From Cantharellus purpuraceus (Eukaryota; Basidiomycota; Agaricomycetes; Cantharellales; Hydnaceae), in NCBI GenBank assembly GCA_025174535.1, contig JALBUN010000006.1:1426001-1490000 (forward strand): a DNA stretch of 64,000 nucleotides. The letters run 5' to 3'. The translations under genes and the position numbers were made by a program. Under the pieces are notes generated by a model that saw only the letters and a list, made by a program, of their open reading frames with translations, had not been told where the DNA came from and ran no database searches. Within the stretch, counting starts at the first letter, position 1. The number at the start of each line of letters is the position of its first letter. This document shows positions 4,618 through 63,313 of this stretch, piece by piece.

Positions 4618-4620
4618 ATA

Positions 4621-5186
4621 GACGCTTGTTCGGAATCATGTCAGTATACAATATTCTGATGTATAGGAGATATACATCAGAATTTCAATGATACATAAAG
4701 CCAGGGAGTTACAATTTGGATATCTTAAAAGATTTCGGATGTGTGAAATTTTCATAAATATAAACATATATTCTATATTTTAATAAACTTTAAAAGATGA
4801 GATATTTGGTTGAGATGAACATAATTATTTACATGGATATAATAGGAATGTATATATGAATATAATTGGTATTATATAGGGTATTTAGATATACAAATAC
4901 CAGGTGGGGATTAAAGATAGTTCAAATTATGTTACAAGTATTGTATAAGAAAGAATCAATGATATTTGGATGTTCCCTCAAGAGAGTTGCCACCACTAAA
5001 TCAGGAAAAAAAGAATTATTTTTGAGAATTATGCCAAAATATCACAATATGTTTTAATCTAGTATATTGTGTAAAATTTGAGAATCATGTTGAAATATGA
5101 AAATAAGTTTGAATTGAAGTGTATTGTATAAAATTTGAGGAAAATGGGTTGTATATATGTATTTGTTGTATTTCTGAATAAGCGTC
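4621..5186 (+). repeat. Left terminal repeat of element T
   Basis: The repeat starts GACGCTTGTTCGGAA and ends TTCTGAATAAGCGTC, giving inverted tips of 15 bp with two mismatches. A subterminal hairpin (ATACATCAG-type arms of 10 bp near 4657-4681) lies close to the left tip and may be a transposase-binding site. The sequence is very AT-rich. A 63-codon frame (4866-5057) inside is not conserved in the related solo copies and is not taken as a gene. Relatives of the repeat occur alone at 23646-24207, 26502-27106 and 38045-38614, and as a remnant at 63234-63313. Confidence 0.9.
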
Positions 5187-5716
5187 TTAGGAAAGTCTTG
5201 GAAACACCTTTAATGCAGTGAAGCTATTTTTAAAACAAAGTAACTTAGTTAGGGCATAGTGGTAGATAATCTTGTTCTAACATAAGACTGTATGACTATC
5301 CCTCGTACTTTAGGGTGCAATACCATCAGATTTTCCATCCAAAGTGGTGGAAAATAATGATCCTGCTCCATACTAGTATATAACTCTGTTAATTTCTGTT
5401 CCAGAAGTGTGCCATCAGTACATCTGTATAAAGTCAGTGATTGGAACCTTGATATTTATAAAGGAACTTACCTCAGAAACAAATCATGGAGGGATCCTAT
5501 CCGAGATATATACCAATCATTAACTCTTCTATCAAACTCTATCTTGCATTGAAGCATAAAAGAGAGCATCTTCATAATGCTTATAACATAAAAACATAAT
5601 AATCATTTTATTAAGAAAGCAAGATGTATATATCTACTGCCTATACAAAATATCAAATGTTCAGAAAAAAATGATTATTATGTTTTTTCATTTCTGTTTT
5701 ATAAGCAGAGAGGGAT
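5187..5716. other. Non-coding left interior of element T
   Basis: No gene is supported in these 530 bases. The stretch is AT-rich and probably holds the promoter of the coiled-coil gene at 5717. A segment at about 5249-5325 vaguely resembles the A and B boxes of a tRNA but does not fold into one on inspection. Confidence 0.5.
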
Positions 5717-6790
5717 TTGAAAATGTCACAAATCTTTGAAGATATAAAAGCAATCAAAGGCTGGATAAGTGACAATGATGCACTGATAAAAGCTATGGCA
5801 AGTCAAATGGAAGTAAAAGATGAATTAATATCTGATCTTATAAATGTCAAGTCTTGGATGAGTGAAAAGGATAGGCAGATCACTATGCTTGAACAACAGG
5901 TTAATTCCCAGAGTCAGGAAATTCAGGTGCTTAAGAAACAGGTTGAGGAAAAAAATACAATTATAACTACTTTGACAGACAGGAAAGAGAATTTAGATGA
6001 ATGGATGAGTGAAATGAATGATATTGTATCAGGATTTGGAACAGATATTCATAAACTTCAGAGACAGGTTAATAGGTGTGTTGCCACAATATCAGACCAT
6101 GGAACAGATATTCATCAACAGGTCAATACACATAATGCAGAGAATCTTATATTGGACCATAGAACAGATATTCATAAACTTCAGAAACAGGTTAATAGAT
6201 GTATTGCAACAATATCAGACATTGTGGAATGGAAATCTGAAGTGCATGAGTGGATTGTAGAAACAGATGATACTGTAGTGGAACTTGGAACAGACATTAA
6301 TAAACTTCAGAAACAGGGTGATAAATATAAAGCAATAATATCTGAGATTGTTGACTGGAAATTTGATATGAATCACTGGGCTGGAAAACAAGAACAGGAG
6401 GTAACAAGGTTACAGGAAAATGGTACCAGAAAGGTGACATTTAAGATAGTGAAAAGAGGTGTAGACTATATACTTATAGACTCAGATCAGTCTTGTAGAC
6501 TAAATAGAATGGAATTATTCATAAATGGTGAGCCTAGAAAACTATCTACAATATATACTAGGAAGAATGAAATGTCATCATATGGCGTAGATGGTAATAG
6601 GATTAATTTTCAAACATGGAAGCAAGGAATGACTCAAGGTTCAAGGCATCAAGAAAAAAGGTCTAAGGAACGATCTCAAACTCCTAGTTCAAGGCATCAA
6701 GAAAAAAGGTCTAAGGAACGATCTGATTCAGACTCTGATCAATCTCAAATTCCTAGTTCAAGAAAAAGATGTAGAGGGAGAACCCAGTAA
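5717..6790 (+). CDS. Coiled-coil protein with repeated heptad block and Arg/Ser-rich tail (unknown function)
   Basis: The 357-residue protein is not recognised. Residues 1-240 are a long heptad-rich coiled coil. It contains three or four copies of a block built around GTDIHKLQKQVNR and IATISD (about residues 110-210), so it has grown by internal duplication. Residues 240-300 look globular (VTFKIVKRGVDYILIDSD). The tail from 300 repeats SRHQEKRSKERS twice and ends in KRCRGRT, a basic Arg/Ser-rich stretch suited to RNA or DNA binding or nuclear entry. The chosen Met is the first in the open frame. It is the first gene inside element T and reads toward the transposase. It could be a structural or DNA-bridging partner of the transposase; that is a guess. 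Confidence 0.75.
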   Translation: MKMSQIFEDIKAIKGWISDNDALIKAMASQMEVKDELISDLINVKSWMSEKDRQITMLEQQVNSQSQEIQVLKKQVEEKNTIITTLTDRKENLDEWMSEMNDIVSGFGTDIHKLQRQVNRCVATISDHGTDIHQQVNTHNAENLILDHRTDIHKLQKQVNRCIATISDIVEWKSEVHEWIVETDDTVVELGTDINKLQKQGDKYKAIISEIVDWKFDMNHWAGKQEQEVTRLQENGTRKVTFKIVKRGVDYILIDSDQSCRLNRMELFINGEPRKLSTIYTRKNEMSSYGVDGNRINFQTWKQGMTQGSRHQEKRSKERSQTPSSRHQEKRSKERSDSDSDQSQIPSSRKRCRGRTQ

Positions 6791-6804
6791 TGTAAGCCTC
6801 CAAA

Positions 6805-7607
6805 GACGTAGGATACAAGGTCACCTTGGAGTGAATGGCTGTCCATGAGCAGTCTAATGATGTCCCTATCTGTCGTTTCATTTCTCCATGATTTCCCCTT
6901 TAGTAGCTCAACTTCACACGCTTCGTCAGCTGGCTTGATCAGCATTTCTTGCATCATTTGCTCCTCATATTGTGTCGTTGTGCCCTGGGAATTTGTATAT
7001 AAAAGGGCGCTAGTTTTCGCCTTTGGAATCAAAAAACAAGTTTTCAGCCAACGCTCTAAAGTCAAAGTCCAAGCTCTAAGTCTACACTCTACATCACAAT
7101 CCATCATCTCTACACTGAGGTAAAACACCTTGGTTCAACGATCAGATTTCCCTCCGCCACCGAGAGGTTGCTTCTCCTGAAACCAGCTTTCGTGTACCTC
7201 CCAACCGGGCTCCGCATTGTCATCCAGTCACAGAGCACGATCAGCCATCAGGACCGACCTTTTGCTCCCATCCTCATCCAACCACAGAGCACTATCCCAC
7301 TTCCCTGTTACGTACCCCTCTCCCTGATTGATCTTTGGAGTGCTGAACAACTGCGTTACACACCGTCTGCTTGCTAGGACCATTGCGCGCAGGCTTATAG
7401 GATCTATTCCATAAGCGAACCGACACCGAGTGACATCATCGGGCTGCTCAAGGACAACGATTCAATTATCTGGTACACCATGCCGCTGCAAAGTCTCACC
7501 TACTGTCTGCTCAGTAAGTGCATCATTATCAACCCTCACAGCCAAAAGGCTGTCCTTTGATAATGTGATCAAACTGCTCCTGACAAGGTGACCTTCCATC
7601 CGACGTC
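6805..7607. mobile_element. Insertion within element T bounded by 24-bp inverted repeats
   Basis: The segments 6805-6828 and 7584-7607 are reverse complements over 24 bp with three mismatches; both contain the palindromic core AAGGTCACCTT. Between them the sequence is less AT-rich than the rest of T, and 6861-7425 matches the 3' part of LTR4 (39634-41059). It therefore looks like foreign sequence captured by T just after the coiled-coil gene. No open gene is supported inside. Whether the 24-bp repeats are ends of a separate transposon or a chance of the capture is unclear. Confidence 0.5.
6861..7425 (+). repeat. LTR4 fragment inside element T
   Basis: The segment is closely similar to about 40465-41059, the downstream part of the solo LTR4. 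It includes the TATA box (TATATAAAAG, 6996-7005) and ends with the terminal CA of the LTR at 7425. The LTR's first 800 bases are missing. The bases after 7425 may be retrotransposon leader. The fragment could serve as a promoter for the small genes that start at 7918. Confidence 0.7.
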
Positions 7608-7917
7608 ATTACCATGATATGATAATATCCAATCGGCTGGTACACCTATTTAGCTATGCAGCAAAGAATTTGGAATGAAAGACTGGCAAGATAGGAAACA
7701 AGGAACTGGTAGAAGAATGATAGATGAAAGGACAGGGAATTCTGTATGGGACTTTGTTGTAGTATTCAGAACGAGTGCATGCATCTGGCTATTGACAACT
7801 TTAGAAAATATATATAATTCAATTTATAAATATTAGATAAAAATATGGACATTCTGCTCTTCAGAACTATGCACATATCTAGTAAATAAATTTTATATAT
7901 CCTTCTTTATTGACATC

Positions 7918-8085
7918 ATGGGTAAAGATAAGAAGTGCAATGATTGGAGTTCTCATGATCTTTGGGATTATGGTATAATGGTTGACACACAATGGACTAA
8001 ACAGTTTTTTGAGACAGATTTTAGAGATATTACTTTAGATACTGATGATGAGATCCTCAGTTTTGATTACAAAAAGATGATGTGA
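7918..8085 (+). CDS. Small acidic protein of 55 residues (unknown)
   Basis: The open frame starts MGKDKKCNDWSSHDLWDYG and ends FDYKKMM. It is rich in Asp, Trp and Phe and strongly acidic in its second half. No family is recognised. It may be a complete small gene or an exon of a longer one: further short frames follow at 8088 and 8163, but no convincing donor and acceptor pair joins them. It lies in the block of four plus-strand small frames of element T. Confidence 0.4.
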   Translation: MGKDKKCNDWSSHDLWDYGIMVDTQWTKQFFETDFRDITLDTDDEILSFDYKKMM

Positions 8086-8162
8086 AATGTTTAAAGGAGT
8101 CTTCAAGAAAATTTTTACATACTTAGATAAGGAAGAATAAGGGAAAAAGTGCTTTAGAGGAA

Positions 8163-8408
8163 ATGACAATACCTTGCATTCAAACATCGAGAAAAGTCCC
8201 CCAGTTTTACCTAGTAACTGTTACAAGAGAGCTTGATCATGCTATCACAGAAGGGTTGTTTTCAGAAGTGATAACAAATGTAAGGTGTTGTTTCCCTGTA
8301 ACAGTAACAGGTATGAAACATATTAATAGTAGAAAGAATGTTCTACAGTGTTTTGAAGCATTTAAGAAGTTTGTAGATATACTTGATAGGAAATTAGATG
8401 AGAAATAA
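8163..8408 (+). CDS. Small protein of 81 residues (unknown)
   Basis: The frame begins MTIPCIQTSRKVPQFYLVTV and has an alternating hydrophobic pattern that suggests beta strands, followed by a helical end (FEAFKKFVDILDRKLDEK). The frame is open for 33 bases upstream of the Met, so the true start could be earlier or in another exon. No family is recognised. It is the second of the four small plus-strand frames in element T. Confidence 0.45.
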   Translation: MTIPCIQTSRKVPQFYLVTVTRELDHAITEGLFSEVITNVRCCFPVTVTGMKHINSRKNVLQCFEAFKKFVDILDRKLDEK

Positions 8409-8446
8409 TGAGTTTTGAAAATTAATATATAATAACCAGAGACACC

Positions 8447-8626
8447 ATGTTGAATATACCCGAGATTGGTGATAAGGTATCATTTATCAATGCAAGAACA
8501 CAAATGACAGTGACAGGTATTGTTACATTAGTAACTGGCACTTTGTCAGATGACACTTTGCTAATAACTGTTACTTATGATGACAATGAGATTCAGCTAC
8601 CACTACGTGCACTACAACAAGTATAA
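8447..8626 (+). CDS. Small beta-rich protein of 59 residues (unknown, SH3-like barrel possible)
   Basis: The frame reads MLNIPEIGDKVSFINARTQM and then alternates hydrophobic and polar residues through several Thr/Val-rich strands, ending LRALQQV. The opening GDKVSF and later VTYDDNE patterns recall small SH3- or KOW-like barrels that bind nucleic acid or peptides; this is only a fold impression. It starts 38 bases after the previous frame ends, a spacing that suggests compact packing of genes in element T. Confidence 0.45.
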   Translation: MLNIPEIGDKVSFINARTQMTVTGIVTLVTGTLSDDTLLITVTYDDNEIQLPLRALQQV

Positions 8627-8677
8627 GATAAATCAGATAAGTGAATATGCAATATTTTTATTCACTCAAATGAAGGC

Positions 8678-8902
8678 ATGTGTGGTGATAGTGAAAAAAT
8701 TCAAATTACTTGGAAGTGCAATCATATAACTACTACATCTGTAGTTACAGATTGTAAGGATATTAAATGTCCTAAGAGCTCTGAACATTCAAAAAATACT
8801 CATCATGATACTAATGGTACTTATTGTTGTGTGAACAAAAGTTCAAATCTTGAAATTATCCAAGTGAAAATAGATGAAAAATGTTGTGAGTGTAGAAACT
8901 AG
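8678..8902 (+). CDS. Small Cys/His-rich protein of 74 residues (putative zinc binder)
   Basis: The protein has about ten Cys and five His in 74 residues: WKCNHITTT, TDCKDIKCPKSSEH, YCCVN and KCCECRN. The spacing (C-x-H, later C-x4-C, a final C-C-x-C) suggests one or two bound zinc ions, in the manner of short fungal proteins with a C-x-H...C...C pattern. There is no signal peptide. It is the last small plus-strand frame of element T and converges with the minus-strand gene that ends at 8921, with 18 bases between their stops. Confidence 0.55.
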   Translation: MCGDSEKIQITWKCNHITTTSVVTDCKDIKCPKSSEHSKNTHHDTNGTYCCVNKSSNLEIIQVKIDEKCCECRN

Positions 8903-8920
8903 GACTTTTAAATCAACTCC

Positions 8921-9571
8921 TTATGAGGATTCTTTGAACATCTGATTTCTTATACTTTGGAATATAATGTCAATAGCATTAGAACACTCTTCAAACTGAG
9001 CTTCTATGCTGTATCCAGAGGAAGGATATACAACAATTGAAACACCCTGATTGTTATTGGTGGTTTCATATAATTTTAACCTACCATCCTTAGTTATGAT
9101 CATACCATAGATTGTGATTTTACTTTTCTTGAAAACTCTCTGCTGTTGTTTCAATGCAACAACCATTGATGTAACCAAATTGTTATACACATCACAGTTC
9201 TTACAAGTTTCCCCAGCAATAGAAATATCACACTTCTTGCCAGTTTCTCTAGCAATAGAAATATTACAACTAGGCAGATTATCCTGTTGCATGGTTTGCA
9301 GACTTGACATACAATGATTTTGTTGAATCCAGGTTGAATTACTTATTTCATTGCCCTTTTCAATCATCTTATTGTACAGTGCTTCTGGTGTTTTATCTCT
9401 TTCCTGAGAAACCGATCCAGCTGGAAAGAAGTCCTTTGGGGGATTTCTTAATCTGAATTTTATGTAGATGGTGTCAGAGTCTATATACAAAGGATTTTCA
9501 TCATCCTCTGGTTCTTTTTTAACAAAGACAGTAGATATTTTACGAACAACTTGCTTAGAGACAGACAACAT
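8921..9571 (-). CDS. 216-residue protein of unknown function, divergent from the transposase
   Basis: The frame starts MLSVSKQVVRKISTVFVKKE. It shows an acidic patch (EPEDDENPLYID), a direct repeat in the middle (SIARETGKKCD and SIAGETCKNCD, about residues 104-127) and a C-terminal half with mixed beta and helix (ITIYGMIITKDGRLKLYE). No family is recognised. Its start lies 96 bases from the transposase start on the other strand, so the two genes share a short divergent promoter region (9572-9667). It is the only minus-strand gene of element T. Confidence 0.65.
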   Translation of the reverse strand: MLSVSKQVVRKISTVFVKKEPEDDENPLYIDSDTIYIKFRLRNPPKDFFPAGSVSQERDKTPEALYNKMIEKGNEISNSTWIQQNHCMSSLQTMQQDNLPSCNISIARETGKKCDISIAGETCKNCDVYNNLVTSMVVALKQQQRVFKKSKITIYGMIITKDGRLKLYETTNNNQGVSIVVYPSSGYSIEAQFEECSNAIDIIFQSIRNQMFKESS

Positions 9572-9667
9572 AGCTTCATAGAATAAATATTATTTAATTT
9601 AAAATTCAATTATCAAAAAAATGAACATATTTTTGTTTTACTGTAATATAAGAGTATCTTAGTCAAA

Positions 9668-11002
9668 ATGCCCTCAGACCAGCAAAAACGCACAAAGGAG
9701 CAAAAAGAGAAAGAAGAAAAAGAGCTTCAGCAACTTAAAATGTGGAATGATCAAAGGGACAGAGCATATAATAAGTTGATGGACAATCATTGGAATTTTC
9801 TATACACAAAGTGGCCTGTCTTAGAACACAAAAAATATCATAGAACAAAACTAAAAGATATGAATGACATGGATGATGTAAAAAAAGTAGTATATAACAA
9901 GCTTGGACCAATACCAGTATTTTTCTTTCTTGTGGTATTGTTTTCAGTTGAAGAACATTCTACACCTTATAGAGAGATAGAAAAAGGCTTGTTAGTACTA
10001 TATCATCTACTCAAAGGTCCTACTTATGAAGAAATAGGAAATTTCATGCCATCAAGTAGCTTTTATGATGTTCATAAGGAATTTTATGGTCGTCTGCATC
10101 ATCTTAACTTTGATCTAGATAAACAAGTTACTGATTCACTGCGTACAATGTTCTCAAATATAATAATAAGGATATTATCAGCTCTTATAAAGAATCCTCC
10201 AAAAATGGAATCAGTGACATTACTTCTTGATGGTCATGATACAAGAGGAATTTTGATTGGATCGACATCTGAAGAGGGGTACTCACATAAATTTAAAAAG
10301 GCAGGATTTCGTACTCAAGTATGCATTGACATTAATCAAATGGTTCTATTCACCTCACCTTCATTGGCATGTAAACTAAATCCTGATGCAAAAATGTTTG
10401 TAGAGATGGCTGTATGGAATAAAATAGATAAGAATGATCAGATAGGCTTTGATGGAGCTTATCCATCTGCTATTCCAGAAGTAGTAAAGGCAAGTATATT
10501 AAAGCCTAAGAACTTCTTTTATCCTTTTCGGAAGCCAAAAAATGTTGAACTTAAACCTGAAGAAAAGATTTTTAATAAGAAGTTTGGTGCCTTTCATTCA
10601 ACAATAGAAGCATTCTTTGGAGGGTTTGCAATATTGTTTGAAAAATTTGATAATAAGAGATCTATTAGAACTACAAATCCTGCTGTCTTTAATCTGGAAT
10701 TAAAGGTAGCATGTCTATTATGGAATATTAAGAAATTTGTAGAACTACGTAAGATCAAACCATCCCCTTATCATGAAAAATGGTGTGAACAATATTTTGA
10801 TTACCCTGAGGAAGAGGACCCAGATATTGAGCCACCCAGATCATTACTGGAAAGAGCAGAAGATGTTGACAAGATGACTCTATCTCAACAACGACTATTA
10901 GAAAGATGTGAGTATGATGTGGAGATGCATTATGAGACTGAAAATGAAGTAGAACAAATAATAAGGCAAAGAAAAAGGAAAGTACGTAGAATATTTAGTT
11001 AA
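9668..11002 (+). CDS. DDE transposase, PIF/Harbinger-like (DDE_Tnp_4 type)
   Basis: The 444-residue protein has a charged N-terminus (1-50), a likely helix-turn-helix at about 117-140 (GPTYEEIGNFMP) and a DDE core. Candidate catalytic residues are Asp188 in LLLDGHDTRG, Asp262 in IGFDGAYPSA and Glu314 in FHSTIEAFFGGF; the IE..F context is typical of DDE_Tnp_4 enzymes, which cut and rejoin DNA at inverted tips and make 3-bp duplications. The C-terminus (400-438) opens into a chromodomain start (ENEVEQIIRQRKRK) whose remainder is in the +1 frame at 10980-11129. It presumably acts on the GACGCTT tips of element T and its relatives. The gene is fully open, unlike nearly everything around it. Confidence 0.85.
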   Translation: MPSDQQKRTKEQKEKEEKELQQLKMWNDQRDRAYNKLMDNHWNFLYTKWPVLEHKKYHRTKLKDMNDMDDVKKVVYNKLGPIPVFFFLVVLFSVEEHSTPYREIEKGLLVLYHLLKGPTYEEIGNFMPSSSFYDVHKEFYGRLHHLNFDLDKQVTDSLRTMFSNIIIRILSALIKNPPKMESVTLLLDGHDTRGILIGSTSEEGYSHKFKKAGFRTQVCIDINQMVLFTSPSLACKLNPDAKMFVEMAVWNKIDKNDQIGFDGAYPSAIPEVVKASILKPKNFFYPFRKPKNVELKPEEKIFNKKFGAFHSTIEAFFGGFAILFEKFDNKRSIRTTNPAVFNLELKVACLLWNIKKFVELRKIKPSPYHEKWCEQYFDYPEEEDPDIEPPRSLLERAEDVDKMTLSQQRLLERCEYDVEMHYETENEVEQIIRQRKRKVRRIFS

Positions 11003-11129
11003 ATGGAAATGTTATGCAGAGAAAACTTGGGAAGCAACATCAAGCTTTAAATCTACAGAATGTATTAAAGAGTATTGGAAAGACAATAGTAATAGTATTA
11101 TTGTATACCTATGCTACATTCAACTGTAA
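10980..11129 (+). other. Chromodomain extension of the transposase in the +1 frame
   Basis: Read from 10980, the sequence gives KYVEYLVKWKCYAEKTWEA and continues to FKSTECIKEYWKDN before a stop. This matches the second half of a chromodomain: strand, KWK-x-Y aromatic cage, TWE and the C-terminal helix. The first half lies at the end of the transposase frame, where the usual first aromatic residue is Asn. Joining needs a +1 shift near 10970-10982, in an A-rich run. It may be a programmed shift, a recent one-base indel or an assembly error. Confidence 0.75.
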
Positions 11130-11185
11130 ATTTTTTTTCCCAGAATAAAATTGAATATTTGTATGTTTTATACTTATAGGTATCT

Positions 11186-11683
11186 ATGGAGACTGATCCA
11201 TTACTGAAACAGCATCTCAATCAACAGTTTTACCAAAAGCCTTTTCACAGCAATCCACACCGGCTAGCTAATTGTACAACATGTGACTGGTACCCCTTTG
11301 GGCAGTATCTGGACCGTTCATATGCTGAAGGTGAAGTGTTCCAGCTTTCAAAGTATCCTCATATCAAATATGTATTTCTTGGTCTACAACCTGATAAAAT
11401 AGGCTATAATGAAAGTGATCCTATTTTTGTAGCAGAATTTGCAGGTTTTCTGAATAAAACCAACAGATTTGTAAGTGGTTCTGATCCAACCTCTGGATAT
11501 GCACACATTATAACCACACATGTGAATCAGGCGTTTGTTAGACAGCCAGGCCCAGATATAAATAGGCAGAAACTATATCTTGGCCGTACAGTGCACATGA
11601 TCTACATAACTAGTATTGGTATACTATTGGCTTTGCTGTGTTGGACAGTGTCCAGACATACCAATGAAGATAAGAATTCATAA
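11186..11683 (+). CDS. 165-residue protein with C-terminal membrane anchor (unknown)
   Basis: The protein starts METDPLLKQHLNQQFYQKPF. It has a CTTCDWYPFGQYLD segment near residue 31 that could bind a metal, a mixed alpha/beta middle and one hydrophobic segment at about 140-157 (IYITSIGILLALLCW) followed by a short polar tail. That layout is a tail-anchored protein with its bulk in the cytosol. No family is recognised. It is the last gene of element T, 56 bases after the chromodomain frame and 79 bases before the right terminal repeat. Confidence 0.65.
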   Translation: METDPLLKQHLNQQFYQKPFHSNPHRLANCTTCDWYPFGQYLDRSYAEGEVFQLSKYPHIKYVFLGLQPDKIGYNESDPIFVAEFAGFLNKTNRFVSGSDPTSGYAHIITTHVNQAFVRQPGPDINRQKLYLGRTVHMIYITSIGILLALLCWTVSRHTNEDKNS

Positions 11684-11762
11684 TGGCATGTCTAAATCTA
11701 TGGAGAAAGAAGCTTGTTGATGATATAAGGTGATGATTTTTGTTTTTAAAATGACCCCCCTA

Positions 11763-12328
11763 GACGCTTGTTCGGAATCATGTCAGTATACAATATTCTG
11801 ATGTATAGGAGATATACATCAGAATTTCAATGATACATAAAGCCAGGGAGTTACAATTTGGATATCTTAAAAGATTTCGGATGTGTGAAATTTTCATAAA
11901 TATAAACATATATTCTATATTTTAATAAACTTTAAAAGATGAGATATTTGGTTGAGATGAACATAATTATTTACATGGATATAATAGGAATGTATATATG
12001 AATATAATTGGTATTATATAGGGTATTTAGATATACAAATACCAGGTGGGGATTAAAGATAGTTCAAATTATGTTACAAGTATTGTATAAGAAAGAATCA
12101 ATGATATTTGGATGTTCCCTCAAGAGAGTTGCCACCACTAAATCAGGAAAAAAAGAATTATTTTTGAGAATTATGCCAAAATATCACAATATGTTTTAAT
12201 CTAGTATATTGTGTAAAATTTGAGAATCATGTTGAAATATGAAAATAAGTTTGAATTGAAGTGTATTGTATAAAATTTGAGGAAAATGGGTTGTATATAT
12301 GTATTTGTTGTATTTCTGAATAAGCGTC
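11763..12328 (+). repeat. Right terminal repeat of element T
   Basis: It has the same length, orientation and, as far as can be read, the same sequence as 4621-5186. It is followed by ATA (12329-12331), which matches the ATA before the left repeat. The inner neighbour (CTA, 11760-11762) does not match, as expected if the repeat did not insert on its own. Confidence 0.9.
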
Positions 12329-12331
12329 ATA

Positions 12332-23645: not shown

Positions 23646-24207
23646 GACGCTTGTTCAGAAATACAACAAATACATATATACAACCTATTTTCCTCAAATT
23701 TTACACAATACACTTAGATTAAAACTTATTTTCATATTTCAATGTGATTCTCAAATTTTACACAATATACTAGATTAAAACCTACTGTGATATTTTGGCA
23801 TAATTCTCAAAAATAACTGTTTTTTCCCCATTTAGTGGTGGCAACTCTCTTGAGGGAACATCCAAATATCATTGATTCTTTCTTATACAATACTTGTAAC
23901 ATAATTTGAACTATCTTTAATCCCCACCTGGTATTTGTATATCTAAATACTCTATATAATACCAATTATATTACATACATTCCTATTATATCCATGTAAA
24001 TGATTATGTTCATCTCAACCAAATATCTCATCTTTTAAAGTTTATTAAAATATAGAATATATGTTTATATTTATGAAAATTTCACACATCCAAAATCTTT
24101 TAAGATATCCAAATTGTAACTCCCTGGCTTTATGTATCATTGAAATTCTGATGTATATCTCATATACATCAGAATATTGTATACTGACATGATTCCAAAC
24201 AAGCATC
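23646..24207 (-). mobile_element. Solo T-type terminal repeat (562 bp) in the RT active-site codons
   Basis: It is the reverse complement of the T terminal repeat with scattered differences. Tips are GACGCTTGTTCAGAA at the left and GATGCTTGTTTGGAA (reverse complement) at the right. The TTA duplication (23643-23645, 24208-24210) is confirmed by the empty site in copy 3 at 54759-54761. It contains no gene, so it must have been moved by an enzyme from elsewhere, or is the scar of a larger element. Confidence 0.93.
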
Positions 24208-38044: not shown

Positions 38045-38614
38045 GATGCTTGTTCAGAAATACAACAAATACATATATACAACCTATTTTCCTCAAATTT
38101 TACACAATACACTTCAATTCAAAAAAAACTTATTTTCATATTTCAACATGATTCTCAAATTTTACACAATATACTAGATTAAAACATATTTTGATATTTT
38201 GGCATAATTCTCAAAAATAATTCTTTTTTCCCCATTTAGTGGTGGCAACTCTCTTGAGGAAACATCCAAATATCATTGATTCTTTCTTATACAATACTTG
38301 TAACATAATTTGAACTATCTTTAATCCCCACCTGGTATTTGTATATCTAAATAACCTATATAATACCAATTATATTAATACATACATTACTGTTATATTC
38401 ATATAAACAATTATGTTCATCTCAATCAAATGTCTTATCTTTTAAAGTTTATTAAAATATAGAATATATATTTATATTTATGAAAATTTCACACATCCAA
38501 AATCTTCTAAGATATCCAAATTGTAACTCCCTGGCTTTATGTATCATTGAAATTCTGATGTATATCTCATATACATCAGAATATTGTATACTGACATGAT
38601 TCTGAACAAGTGTC
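38045..38614 (-). mobile_element. Solo T-type terminal repeat (570 bp) in LTR3a
   Basis: The tips are GATGCTTGTTCAGAA and, at the far end, GACACTTGTTCAGAA. TAA flanks both sides (38042-38044, 38615-38617), and the empty site is seen in LTR3 copies such as 15690-15705. It is the fourth independent repeat with a 3-bp duplication. No gene. Confidence 0.92.
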
Positions 38615-39633: not shown

Positions 39634-41059
39634 TGATGAGCCAGGACACATCGAGGACATATATCAAACCACTCTGACAGTCCAACTCCACCAGCATCTT
39701 TTCATATCAACTTTTAAATAGCGCCGCAAATCCCTCTCCACCTCAGTCTCTAATTCTAGCCATCAATTGTCACTCGTGTTTCATCGCCATCGATCATTAT
39801 CAGCCTTCTATTCACACCGATCTTTTCATCACCATTCATATGGCTTCCAATCCTATTCCTCTCTCCAACATCTCTTCTAATAATATGTCACACTGGTCTC
39901 TGGACACAGAGGACTATCAAAAATACACTGAGCTTCACGGGCATGTTAAGCCACCTCCACGTGTCAAAATACTTCCCAAACTCTTTCAACATCCAAGATC
40001 CCCACCATGTCTCTCCTATGCCATTGGCAATCTATATTCTTTCACAATTCTGTTGAACCATATACATTCCTCGGCATTTCACCTCTATATCATAACACGG
40101 ATAGAAGAGTCGAACGTGAGGTAGAGTTTCAGTTGCCATCGCTGACCTATCCTCCCACTTCAATCTGACTCAGGTTACATCGTGTCAGGCAAAGGGACCA
40201 AATACCCTTGGAATGGGATACCATATGGAGACGGATCACTAAGACAATAAGGAGTATTTGTTGTGGATGCTGACTGAAGTCCTCATGTGACTCAGGGTCA
40301 ATTTACCTTTGGAGCTGTAGGGAAGATGGTATTGGTGGATGTTTCTATTGTTCTTTTATATGACTCACCCCTGTTTCATCTTTTAATTCATTCATACATG
40401 ACTTACTTATCCTTGTTCTATTTTTGGTTCTTTTATTACTCATCACCCCCTATTCTTACAAAGATTACCCCTATCTGTCGTTTCATTTCTCCATGATTTC
40501 CCCATTAGTAGTTCAACCTCACACGCTTCATCAGCTGGCTTGATCAGCATTTCTTGCATCATATTGCATCATTTGCTCCTCATATTGTGTTGTTGTGCCC
40601 TGGGGATTTGTATATAAAAGGGCACTAGTTTTCGCCTTTGGAATCAATCAAGAAGTTTTCAGCCAATGCTCTAAAGTCAAAGTCCACGCTCTAAGTCTCC
40701 ACTCTACGCTCTACATCACAATCCATCATCTCTACACTGAGGTAAAACACCTTGGTTCAACAATCAGATTTCCCTCCACCACCGAGAGGTCGCTTCTCCT
40801 GAAACCAGCTTTCATGTACCTCCCAACCGGGCTTCGCATTGTCATCCAGTCACAGAGCATGATCAGCCATTGGGACCAACCTTTTGCTCCCATCCTCATC
40901 CAACCACAGAGCACTATCCCACTTCCCTATTACTCAGTGCTACCTCTACCCCTTGACCTGATTGATCTTTGGAGTGCTGAACAACTGCATTACACACTGT
41001 CTGTTTGCTAGGACCGTTGCGCGCAGGCTTATAGGATCTATTCCTTAAGCGAACCAACA
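39634..41059 (+). repeat. Solo LTR4 (1426 bp)
   Basis: It begins TGATGAGCCAGGACAC and ends AAGCGAACCAACA, with GCGT on both sides (39630-39633, 41060-41063). A TATA box (TATATAAAAG, 40611-40620) lies about 975 bases in, leaving a long U3. A 94-codon frame (39840-40124) in the U3 has no recognisable domain. Fragments of LTR4 are at 6861-7425 and 63189-63233. The family is probably an LTR retrotransposon, type unknown. Confidence 0.82.
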
Positions 41060-63188: not shown

Positions 63189-63233
63189 CTGATGAGCCAG
63201 GACACATCAAGGACGTATATTGAACCACTCTGA
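63189..63233 (+). repeat. LTR4 fragment (first 45 bases)
   Basis: TGATGAGCCAGGACACATC to CCACTCTGAC matches the start of LTR4 at 39634 and then breaks off. Confidence 0.8.
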
Positions 63234-63313
63234 CTTTATGTATCATTGAAATTCTGATGTATATCTCACATACATCAGAATAGTGTATAATGACATGATT
63301 CCAAACAAGTGTC
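63234..63313 (-). repeat. Remnant of a T-type terminal repeat
   Basis: The last 80 bases of a reverse-oriented repeat, including the subterminal hairpin (CTGATGTATA/TACATCAG) and a GACACTTGTTTGGAA tip (reverse complement). TAA follows, but the other end is gone. Confidence 0.85.

Follow-up and report, generated by a model that had tools for sequence, protein, structure and literature searches.

The general view of eukaryotic DDE transposons is that they move by cut-and-paste. In long terminal repeat (LTR) retrotransposons, the two end repeats are renewed at each transposition, and solo repeats and tandem copies occur. The subject of this report is element T, a unit of 7.7 kb in a 64,000-nucleotide stretch of the genome of the fungus Cantharellus purpuraceus (contig C6, 1426001-1490000; hereafter the window, to which all positions without a contig or copy name refer). 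The closest described system is KolobokP, whose interior is enclosed by long direct repeats at both termini (∼450 or 660 bp), every one of them with its own short inverted tips (Kojima & Bao 2022, PMC9587614). The KolobokP interior encodes a DDD/E transposase of the Kolobok superfamily and a His-Me homing endonuclease, and the elements are reported from seven animal phyla; solo repeats, tandem multimers sharing a repeat, and duplications outside the repeats are described as well (PMC9587614). In the sections of that paper drawn on here, the authors describe the elements as 'unlike any other DNA transposons' and regard a circular intermediate as an open question, and a comparison of left-right with between-element repeat differences is not reported (PMC9587614). 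An earlier note on the window, written from the sequence alone, knew of no described family with the layout of T, a claim that KolobokP overturns (PMC9587614).

Element T consists of two direct repeats of 566 bp (left, 4621-5186; right, 11763-12328; both forward strand) on either side of an interior of 6,576 bp (5187-11762, forward strand). The repeats, which had looked the same in the earlier note, show 0 differences. Their tips are inverted (GACGCTT...AAGCGTC) and, as GACGCTTGTTCGG and GACGCTTATTCAG, are alike at 11 of 13 positions; a 31-nt subterminal palindrome within the left repeat (4653-4683) may be a protein-binding site. The target duplication ATA stands only at the outer edges (4618-4620 and 12329-12331), as the note had proposed. 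The 209-bp flank, joined with a single ATA, has 40 uninterrupted matches at 98-99% among 154 candidates, 40 of which were scored; the 3-bp duplication is thereby established. The site hit by T lies, as judged by eye, in the apparent gag open reading frame (ORF) of a retrotransposon copy. Empty sites were also found for the copies L010, L015, L017, L018, L019, and L024. The inner edges, TTA on the left (5187-5189) and CTA on the right (11760-11762), do not match, as had been read before, but that reading needs one correction. They are constant, TTA among the copies examined and CTA in young copies and in the older relatives L029, L113, and L118, and are therefore part of the element.

T belongs to a family of ∼60 elements in the host genome (40.15 Mb in 50 contigs), which was searched with junction patterns allowing up to two mismatches (a reversed-pattern control gave 0 matches). 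The patterns located 56 left and 58 right junctions, of which 50 pair, 49 of them around an interior of 6.0-7.3 kb and one around 12.45 kb (median 6.6 kb). The interior left-end pattern alone occurs at 61 places, comprising the 56 of the junction list and five more (L016, L019, L110, L111, and L112), all beside a repeat; the interior right end occurs at 58 places, comprising 56 listed and the older relatives L029 and L113, both with a repeat. A pattern search of the host genome hence gave no interior end without a repeat (61/61 left and 58/58 right), with the limits that at some sites only the end of the repeat is visible, owing to a contig end or the limited stretch fetched, and that end patterns miss copies with a deleted or diverged interior end, apparently including the second unit on C38. 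The interior can be aligned over its full length in the fetched copies. In the older relatives L029 and L118 the right repeat is present, and the left part of T was not found in the stretch fetched. The view of the earlier note that the unit moves as one piece is upheld by this 7.7-kb multicopy family with the same interior and 3-bp duplications. The several 7-8-kb copies with end repeats that it had suggested looking for exist, and neither of the two observations it had named as damaging was made: no interior end found by pattern lacks the repeat, and the 50 repeat pairs enclose the same interior ends at a similar distance, not unrelated sequence.

Left and right repeats within an element are far more similar to each other than to the repeats of other elements. 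Substitutions between left and right repeats were counted in 44 non-tandem elements and five tandem pairs; C14:714701, C40 (whose left repeat is cut by a contig end), C8:13704, C45:160641, and C26:126007 were not measured, nor was L010, the right repeat of which is truncated and the triplets of which match (TTT). Outer triplets match in 36 of the 44 non-tandem elements. Within these 36, left and right differ by a mean of 0.256% (median 0.18%), and 16 show no substitution. Between elements the differences reach 2.065% (left-right), 2.059% (left-left), and 2.062% (right-right), and none of 20,000 permutations of partners gave a value as low as that observed within elements. The nearest repeat is the element's own partner in 30/36 cases with ties allowed and in 23/36 strictly. 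Across the 44 elements no site is specific to left or right repeats, the largest frequency difference between the sides being 0.14 at any site. Left and right of one element are thus alike, and neither is like its positional counterparts elsewhere. The eight elements with non-matching triplets differ by a mean of 1.03% (0.18-2.04%); in two of these, C15c and C37, one repeat is truncated, and the remaining six have the look of recombinants in which left-right differences persist.

Repeats that merely lie near an element provide a control. A same-direction repeat 116 bp from L020 differs from it by 31 substitutions, and the element's own ends, 6.6 kb apart, differ by 0. At C3b, a same-direction repeat ∼6.7 kb away differs by 22-25 and the own ends by three. 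The third case, the non-matching element L023, is uninformative (5-10 substitutions from a repeat ∼6.8 kb away, five between own ends). The likeness of left and right within elements, set against the divergence between elements, shows that left and right become alike with each transposition or near it, as they do in LTR elements. This equalisation takes place at the scale of single insertions, and its measurement is what is new in the present analysis.

Copies of T also occur in tandem and as solo repeats. Four junctions on three contigs (C38, C44, and C45) join tandem copies that share one repeat, and in the C45 dimer TAA stands on both outer sides of the whole. At up to three mismatches, 610 left tips are present genome-wide (control, 1); as elements account for ∼115 of them, several hundred solo repeats or fragments must exist. 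Sampled solos have matching triplets in 22/25 cases, or at 20/23 loci when two duplicated loci are counted once. T thus inserts as a unit with a 3-bp duplication, its tandems share one repeat, and solos with matching triplets are common. The window holds two solos on the reverse strand, at 23646-24207 (flanks TAA/TAA) and 38045-38614 (flanks TTA/TTA), and a truncated old repeat of which 95 bp align (63219-63313, reverse strand). A repeated target was hit at the same position in two of its copies, by the solo at 23646-24207 and by the full element L024 (L024:568-8289); their repeats are 25-26 substitutions apart, and the two are probably independent hits of one hot spot. The solo at 38045 and the truncated repeat at 63219 have near-identical counterparts at similar spacing on contig C4 (window ∼38000-63300; C4 ∼14000-40100), a correspondence that may reflect a segmental duplication or a second haplotype.

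The transposase assigns T to a superfamily. It is encoded on the forward strand (9668-11002, 444 amino acids) and was called PIF/Harbinger-like in the earlier note, an assignment that its relatives corroborate. A search returned 61 relatives, the named ones being from Apophysomyces, Rhizomucor, Mortierella, Actinomortierella, and Thamnidium; PIF/Harbinger occurrence in Mucorales is treated in PMC7928374, in the portion consulted. The window protein was aligned with 48 of the 61, leaving out 13 that are mostly short or partial. PF13359 (DDE_Tnp_4) is matched by 47/49 aligned proteins at E<=0.001 (best 1.2e-15), and the window protein itself reaches E 0.0029 and 17.7 bits, below the cut-off of 24.8. 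Conserved motifs suggest D188, D262, and E314 as the likely catalytic triad; D188 and D262 are present in 49/49 aligned proteins and E314 in 48/49. The target is a symmetrical C|TWA|G (56 sites: 36 elements and 20 solos), with C before the triplet in 36/56 and G after it in 38/56, and the duplications of matched elements are TAA or TTA in 20/36. For NuwaII the target is given as C|TNA|G, and for PIF/Harbinger as TWA, in the part of PMC4482050 used. On these sequence traits, a DDE_Tnp_4-type transposase with a DDE triad and a 3-bp duplication at a TWA / C|TNA|G target, T is classed as a PIF/Harbinger-like (PHIS) DNA transposon with an LTR-like architecture of repeat, interior, and repeat. Two PHIS traits are missing from this assignment: the ends are 566-bp direct repeats, not terminal inverted repeats alone, and the second ORF was not recognised, since no Myb or SANT match at E<=1 was obtained in the 12 ORFs scanned (smaller ORFs not scanned).

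The reading that best accommodates the apparent renewal of the repeats, to which we give about an even chance, is a one-repeat intermediate, probably a circle, that is integrated replicatively through the inverted tips of its own repeat. A resident copy would recombine between its direct repeats and release a circle of the interior and one repeat, leaving behind a solo with its duplication. The transposase would then nick both tips of the circle's single repeat and join them to the target by a co-integrate route. Replication through the repeat would copy it, so that the new insertion has identical repeats on both sides, 3-bp duplications outside them, and TTA and CTA as its constant inner edges. 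Translocatable units of IS26 and co-integrates of the Tn3 type would work in a similar way, except that in T the transposase gene lies in the interior.

Several observations weigh against one-repeat integration. No circle or replication intermediate was observed, and an assembly cannot show one. The neighbour control has three cases, two of them informative. Matched elements show 52 left-right substitutions, of which 35 recur in other elements and 17 are private; several of the recurrent ones fall at CpG sites of the tips or within a single short stretch prone to indels, but L017, L019, C3a, C15a, and C15b carry 3-7 each and require ectopic exchange or a chance match of triplets. Between elements, the repeats are also more diverse (0.66-1.95% in 200-bp windows) than the interior outside a nested miniature inverted-repeat transposable element (MITE; 0.09-0.67%), which the one-repeat model leaves unexplained unless there is exchange with old solos. 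The shared variants and the excess diversity together call for exchange with other copies, and the partners are probably the many old solos. The nested MITE-like insert (6802-7610) has 27-bp inverted ends and a related copy at 40469-41059 and is found in other fetched T copies as well; itself multicopy, it is as diverse as the repeats (1.16-2.33%, windows 6621-7420) and unlike the remaining interior, in keeping with such exchange. Nor is there firm ground for a founding duplication around the repeat: the right inner edge reads CTA in older relatives too; a candidate TTA/TTA from two CCTTA junctions was dropped, as the interior match spans only ∼13 bp and three older relatives read CTA. Frequent conversion between the ends of one element would yield most of the same pattern. 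Finally, precise excision by cut-and-paste, with two proteins, is what the PIF/Harbinger elements so far studied show, according to the part of PMC2836001 relied on here.

A route that keeps to this precedent would have T move by cut-and-paste at its outermost tips, with the ends of each element kept alike through frequent gene conversion or break repair acting between them; the direct repeats would then be incidental, left over from a founding composite made of two MITE-like units. It has in its favour that the tips and the C|TWA|G target of T fit known PHIS elements and that ectopic exchange clearly occurs, as seen in the recombinant elements, the shared variants, and repeats more diverse than the interior. 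Direct neighbours other than the own partner nevertheless stay unhomogenised, even at 116 bp, in the two informative cases of the control, and the recombinant elements retain their left-right differences. As no site is left- or right-specific in the 44 elements, conversion would need a frequency close to that of transposition, and it would have to be confined to the two ends of one element, a restriction that finds no support in the neighbour comparison. We regard cut-and-paste with conversion as rather unlikely, though it has real weight. An improbable alternative is taken from the KolobokP paper (model 5b1 in the part considered, PMC9587614): one-repeat interior circles would enter pre-existing solos by homologous recombination, and the duplications would be those of the older solos. 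Repeat diversity above interior diversity would be explained, and the solo at 23646 and L024 share one target position. Crossing over would leave complementary left and right mosaics, however, and the repeats observed are alike; the two of L024 are one substitution apart, and 25 and 26 substitutions separate them from the solo that shares its target position.

Retrotransposition is very improbable. Alike end repeats, solos, and tandem copies make up the classic LTR picture, and T could in principle be a non-autonomous LTR retrotransposon, or a large retrotransposon derivative, that harbours a transposase gene and depends on a foreign reverse transcriptase for its copying. Its tips are GACGC...GCGTC instead of TG...CA, and it duplicates 3 bp, preferring C|TWA|G. 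Read by eye, the left inner edge shows no tRNA-like primer site and the right inner edge no purine tract; no reverse transcriptase match was obtained in the 12 ORFs scanned, and apart from four large ORFs no T ORF exceeds 129 amino acids; an ORF kept in 18/19 copies sits on the opposite strand. Retrotransposition was rejected because no reverse transcriptase was found and the tips and duplication differ. The chance of two unrelated MITE copies having come to flank other genes is as good as nil. Pairs can arise among several hundred lone repeats, but 50 paired copies have the same interior ends with a repeat on both sides, the full interior aligns in the fetched copies, and every interior end found carries a repeat, which refutes chance pairing.

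In addition to the transposase, the interior contains further ORFs and a chromodomain. On the forward strand are a 357-amino acid ORF with a coiled-coil-like character (weak Pfam hits only) and a basic Ser/Arg tail (5717-6790), an 81-amino acid ORF (8163-8408), and a 165-amino acid ORF with a C-terminal hydrophobic segment noted by eye (11186-11683); a 216-amino acid ORF lies on the reverse strand (8921-9571). The first keeps the same stop without a frame shift in 6/19 other copies and in three more remains open as far as the alignment reaches; the others are intact in 19/19 (81 and 165 amino acids) and 18/19 copies (216 amino acids). The 216- and 165-amino acid ORFs had no homologues in a protein search, and no candidate splice join was found among the small ORFs at ∼7,900-8,900. 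Clustered GTAAC/GTTAC palindrome-like motifs, seen by eye at ∼8230-8690, could represent protein-binding or replication sites. The chromodomain (10965-11126, forward strand) is in a frame other than that of the transposase in this copy and is fused to it in many relatives: 38/49 aligned proteins match a chromodomain at E<=0.001, and the window transposase does not. Viral contigs contained no relative of the transposase, and a PDB sequence search returned chromodomain proteins only among the 60 of 73 matches listed.

The transposase frame is kept in 5/19 other fetched copies and broken in 14/19, and in all five intact copies the protein stops where that of the window copy does. The same lesion patterns recur in several copies, so broken copies have multiplied, and the transposase probably acts in trans. 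Relative to the older relative L029, the ratio of nonsynonymous to synonymous substitution rates is 0.92 for the transposase, 0.73 for the 216-amino acid ORF, and 0.49 for the 165-amino acid ORF, values not clearly unlike those of shifted-frame controls. No clear purifying selection on the ORFs is detectable in this comparison, and the fetched copies are very alike. In the alignment of L029:4879-8003 with window 8726-11823, the transposase segment is ∼21% diverged and the neighbouring ORFs ∼5-7%; judging by this divergence, the interior looks like a mosaic with exchanged modules.

T looks LTR-like, with ends renewed around each move, and yet has a DNA transposase, a combination that points to an unusual copying step. 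The broader proposal is that a eukaryotic DDE transposon has taken a replicative, co-integrate-like route in which one-repeat circles integrate via the tips of the single repeat and end up between two fresh copies, an LTR life style without reverse transcription that, with KolobokP, would have evolved at least twice. We advance it tentatively, at slightly less than even confidence.

Comparison with known systems places T between several of them. With LTR retrotransposons it shares end repeats that are alike within one element, solos, and tandem copies; it differs in having no recognised reverse transcriptase, TG...CA tips, primer site, or purine tract, and a 3-bp instead of a 4-6-bp duplication. 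IS26 pseudo-compound transposons and translocatable units, as presented in the portion of PMC7986276 used, likewise have direct repeats with their own inverted tips around cargo, form arrays, and are proposed to form one-repeat circles, but they are bacterial, make an 8-bp duplication, and carry the transposase inside the repeat unit, whereas that of T is in the interior (9668-11002). PHIS elements (PIF/Harbinger and NuwaII) resemble T in transposase type, 3-bp duplication, target, and short inverted tips; in the part of PMC4482050 considered, they have terminal inverted repeats and mostly a second protein with Myb/SANT, whereas T has direct repeats, no recognised Myb, and a chromodomain in its relatives.

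The closest match remains KolobokP, the only other element with this layout among the matches listed in searches of open-licence papers. As far as the sections used describe it (PMC9587614), the two share long direct repeats with their own inverted tips, an interior transposase, solos, multimers, and duplications outside. Loss of a single repeat from an element is described for KolobokP, whereas it was seen at 0/61 left and 0/58 right interior ends of T. The Kolobok C/DxxH motif between the second D and E is present in 0/49 T-type proteins, and the 12 T ORFs scanned gave no Pfam match to a His-Me homing endonuclease. T further departs from KolobokP in its transposase, which is of DDE_Tnp_4 type, in its 3-bp C|TWA|G targets, and in having a fungal, not an animal, host. 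T is apparently an independent second case of the layout; with KolobokP, it would place direct-repeat ends in another kingdom and another transposase superfamily and make them a recurrent design, not a freak.

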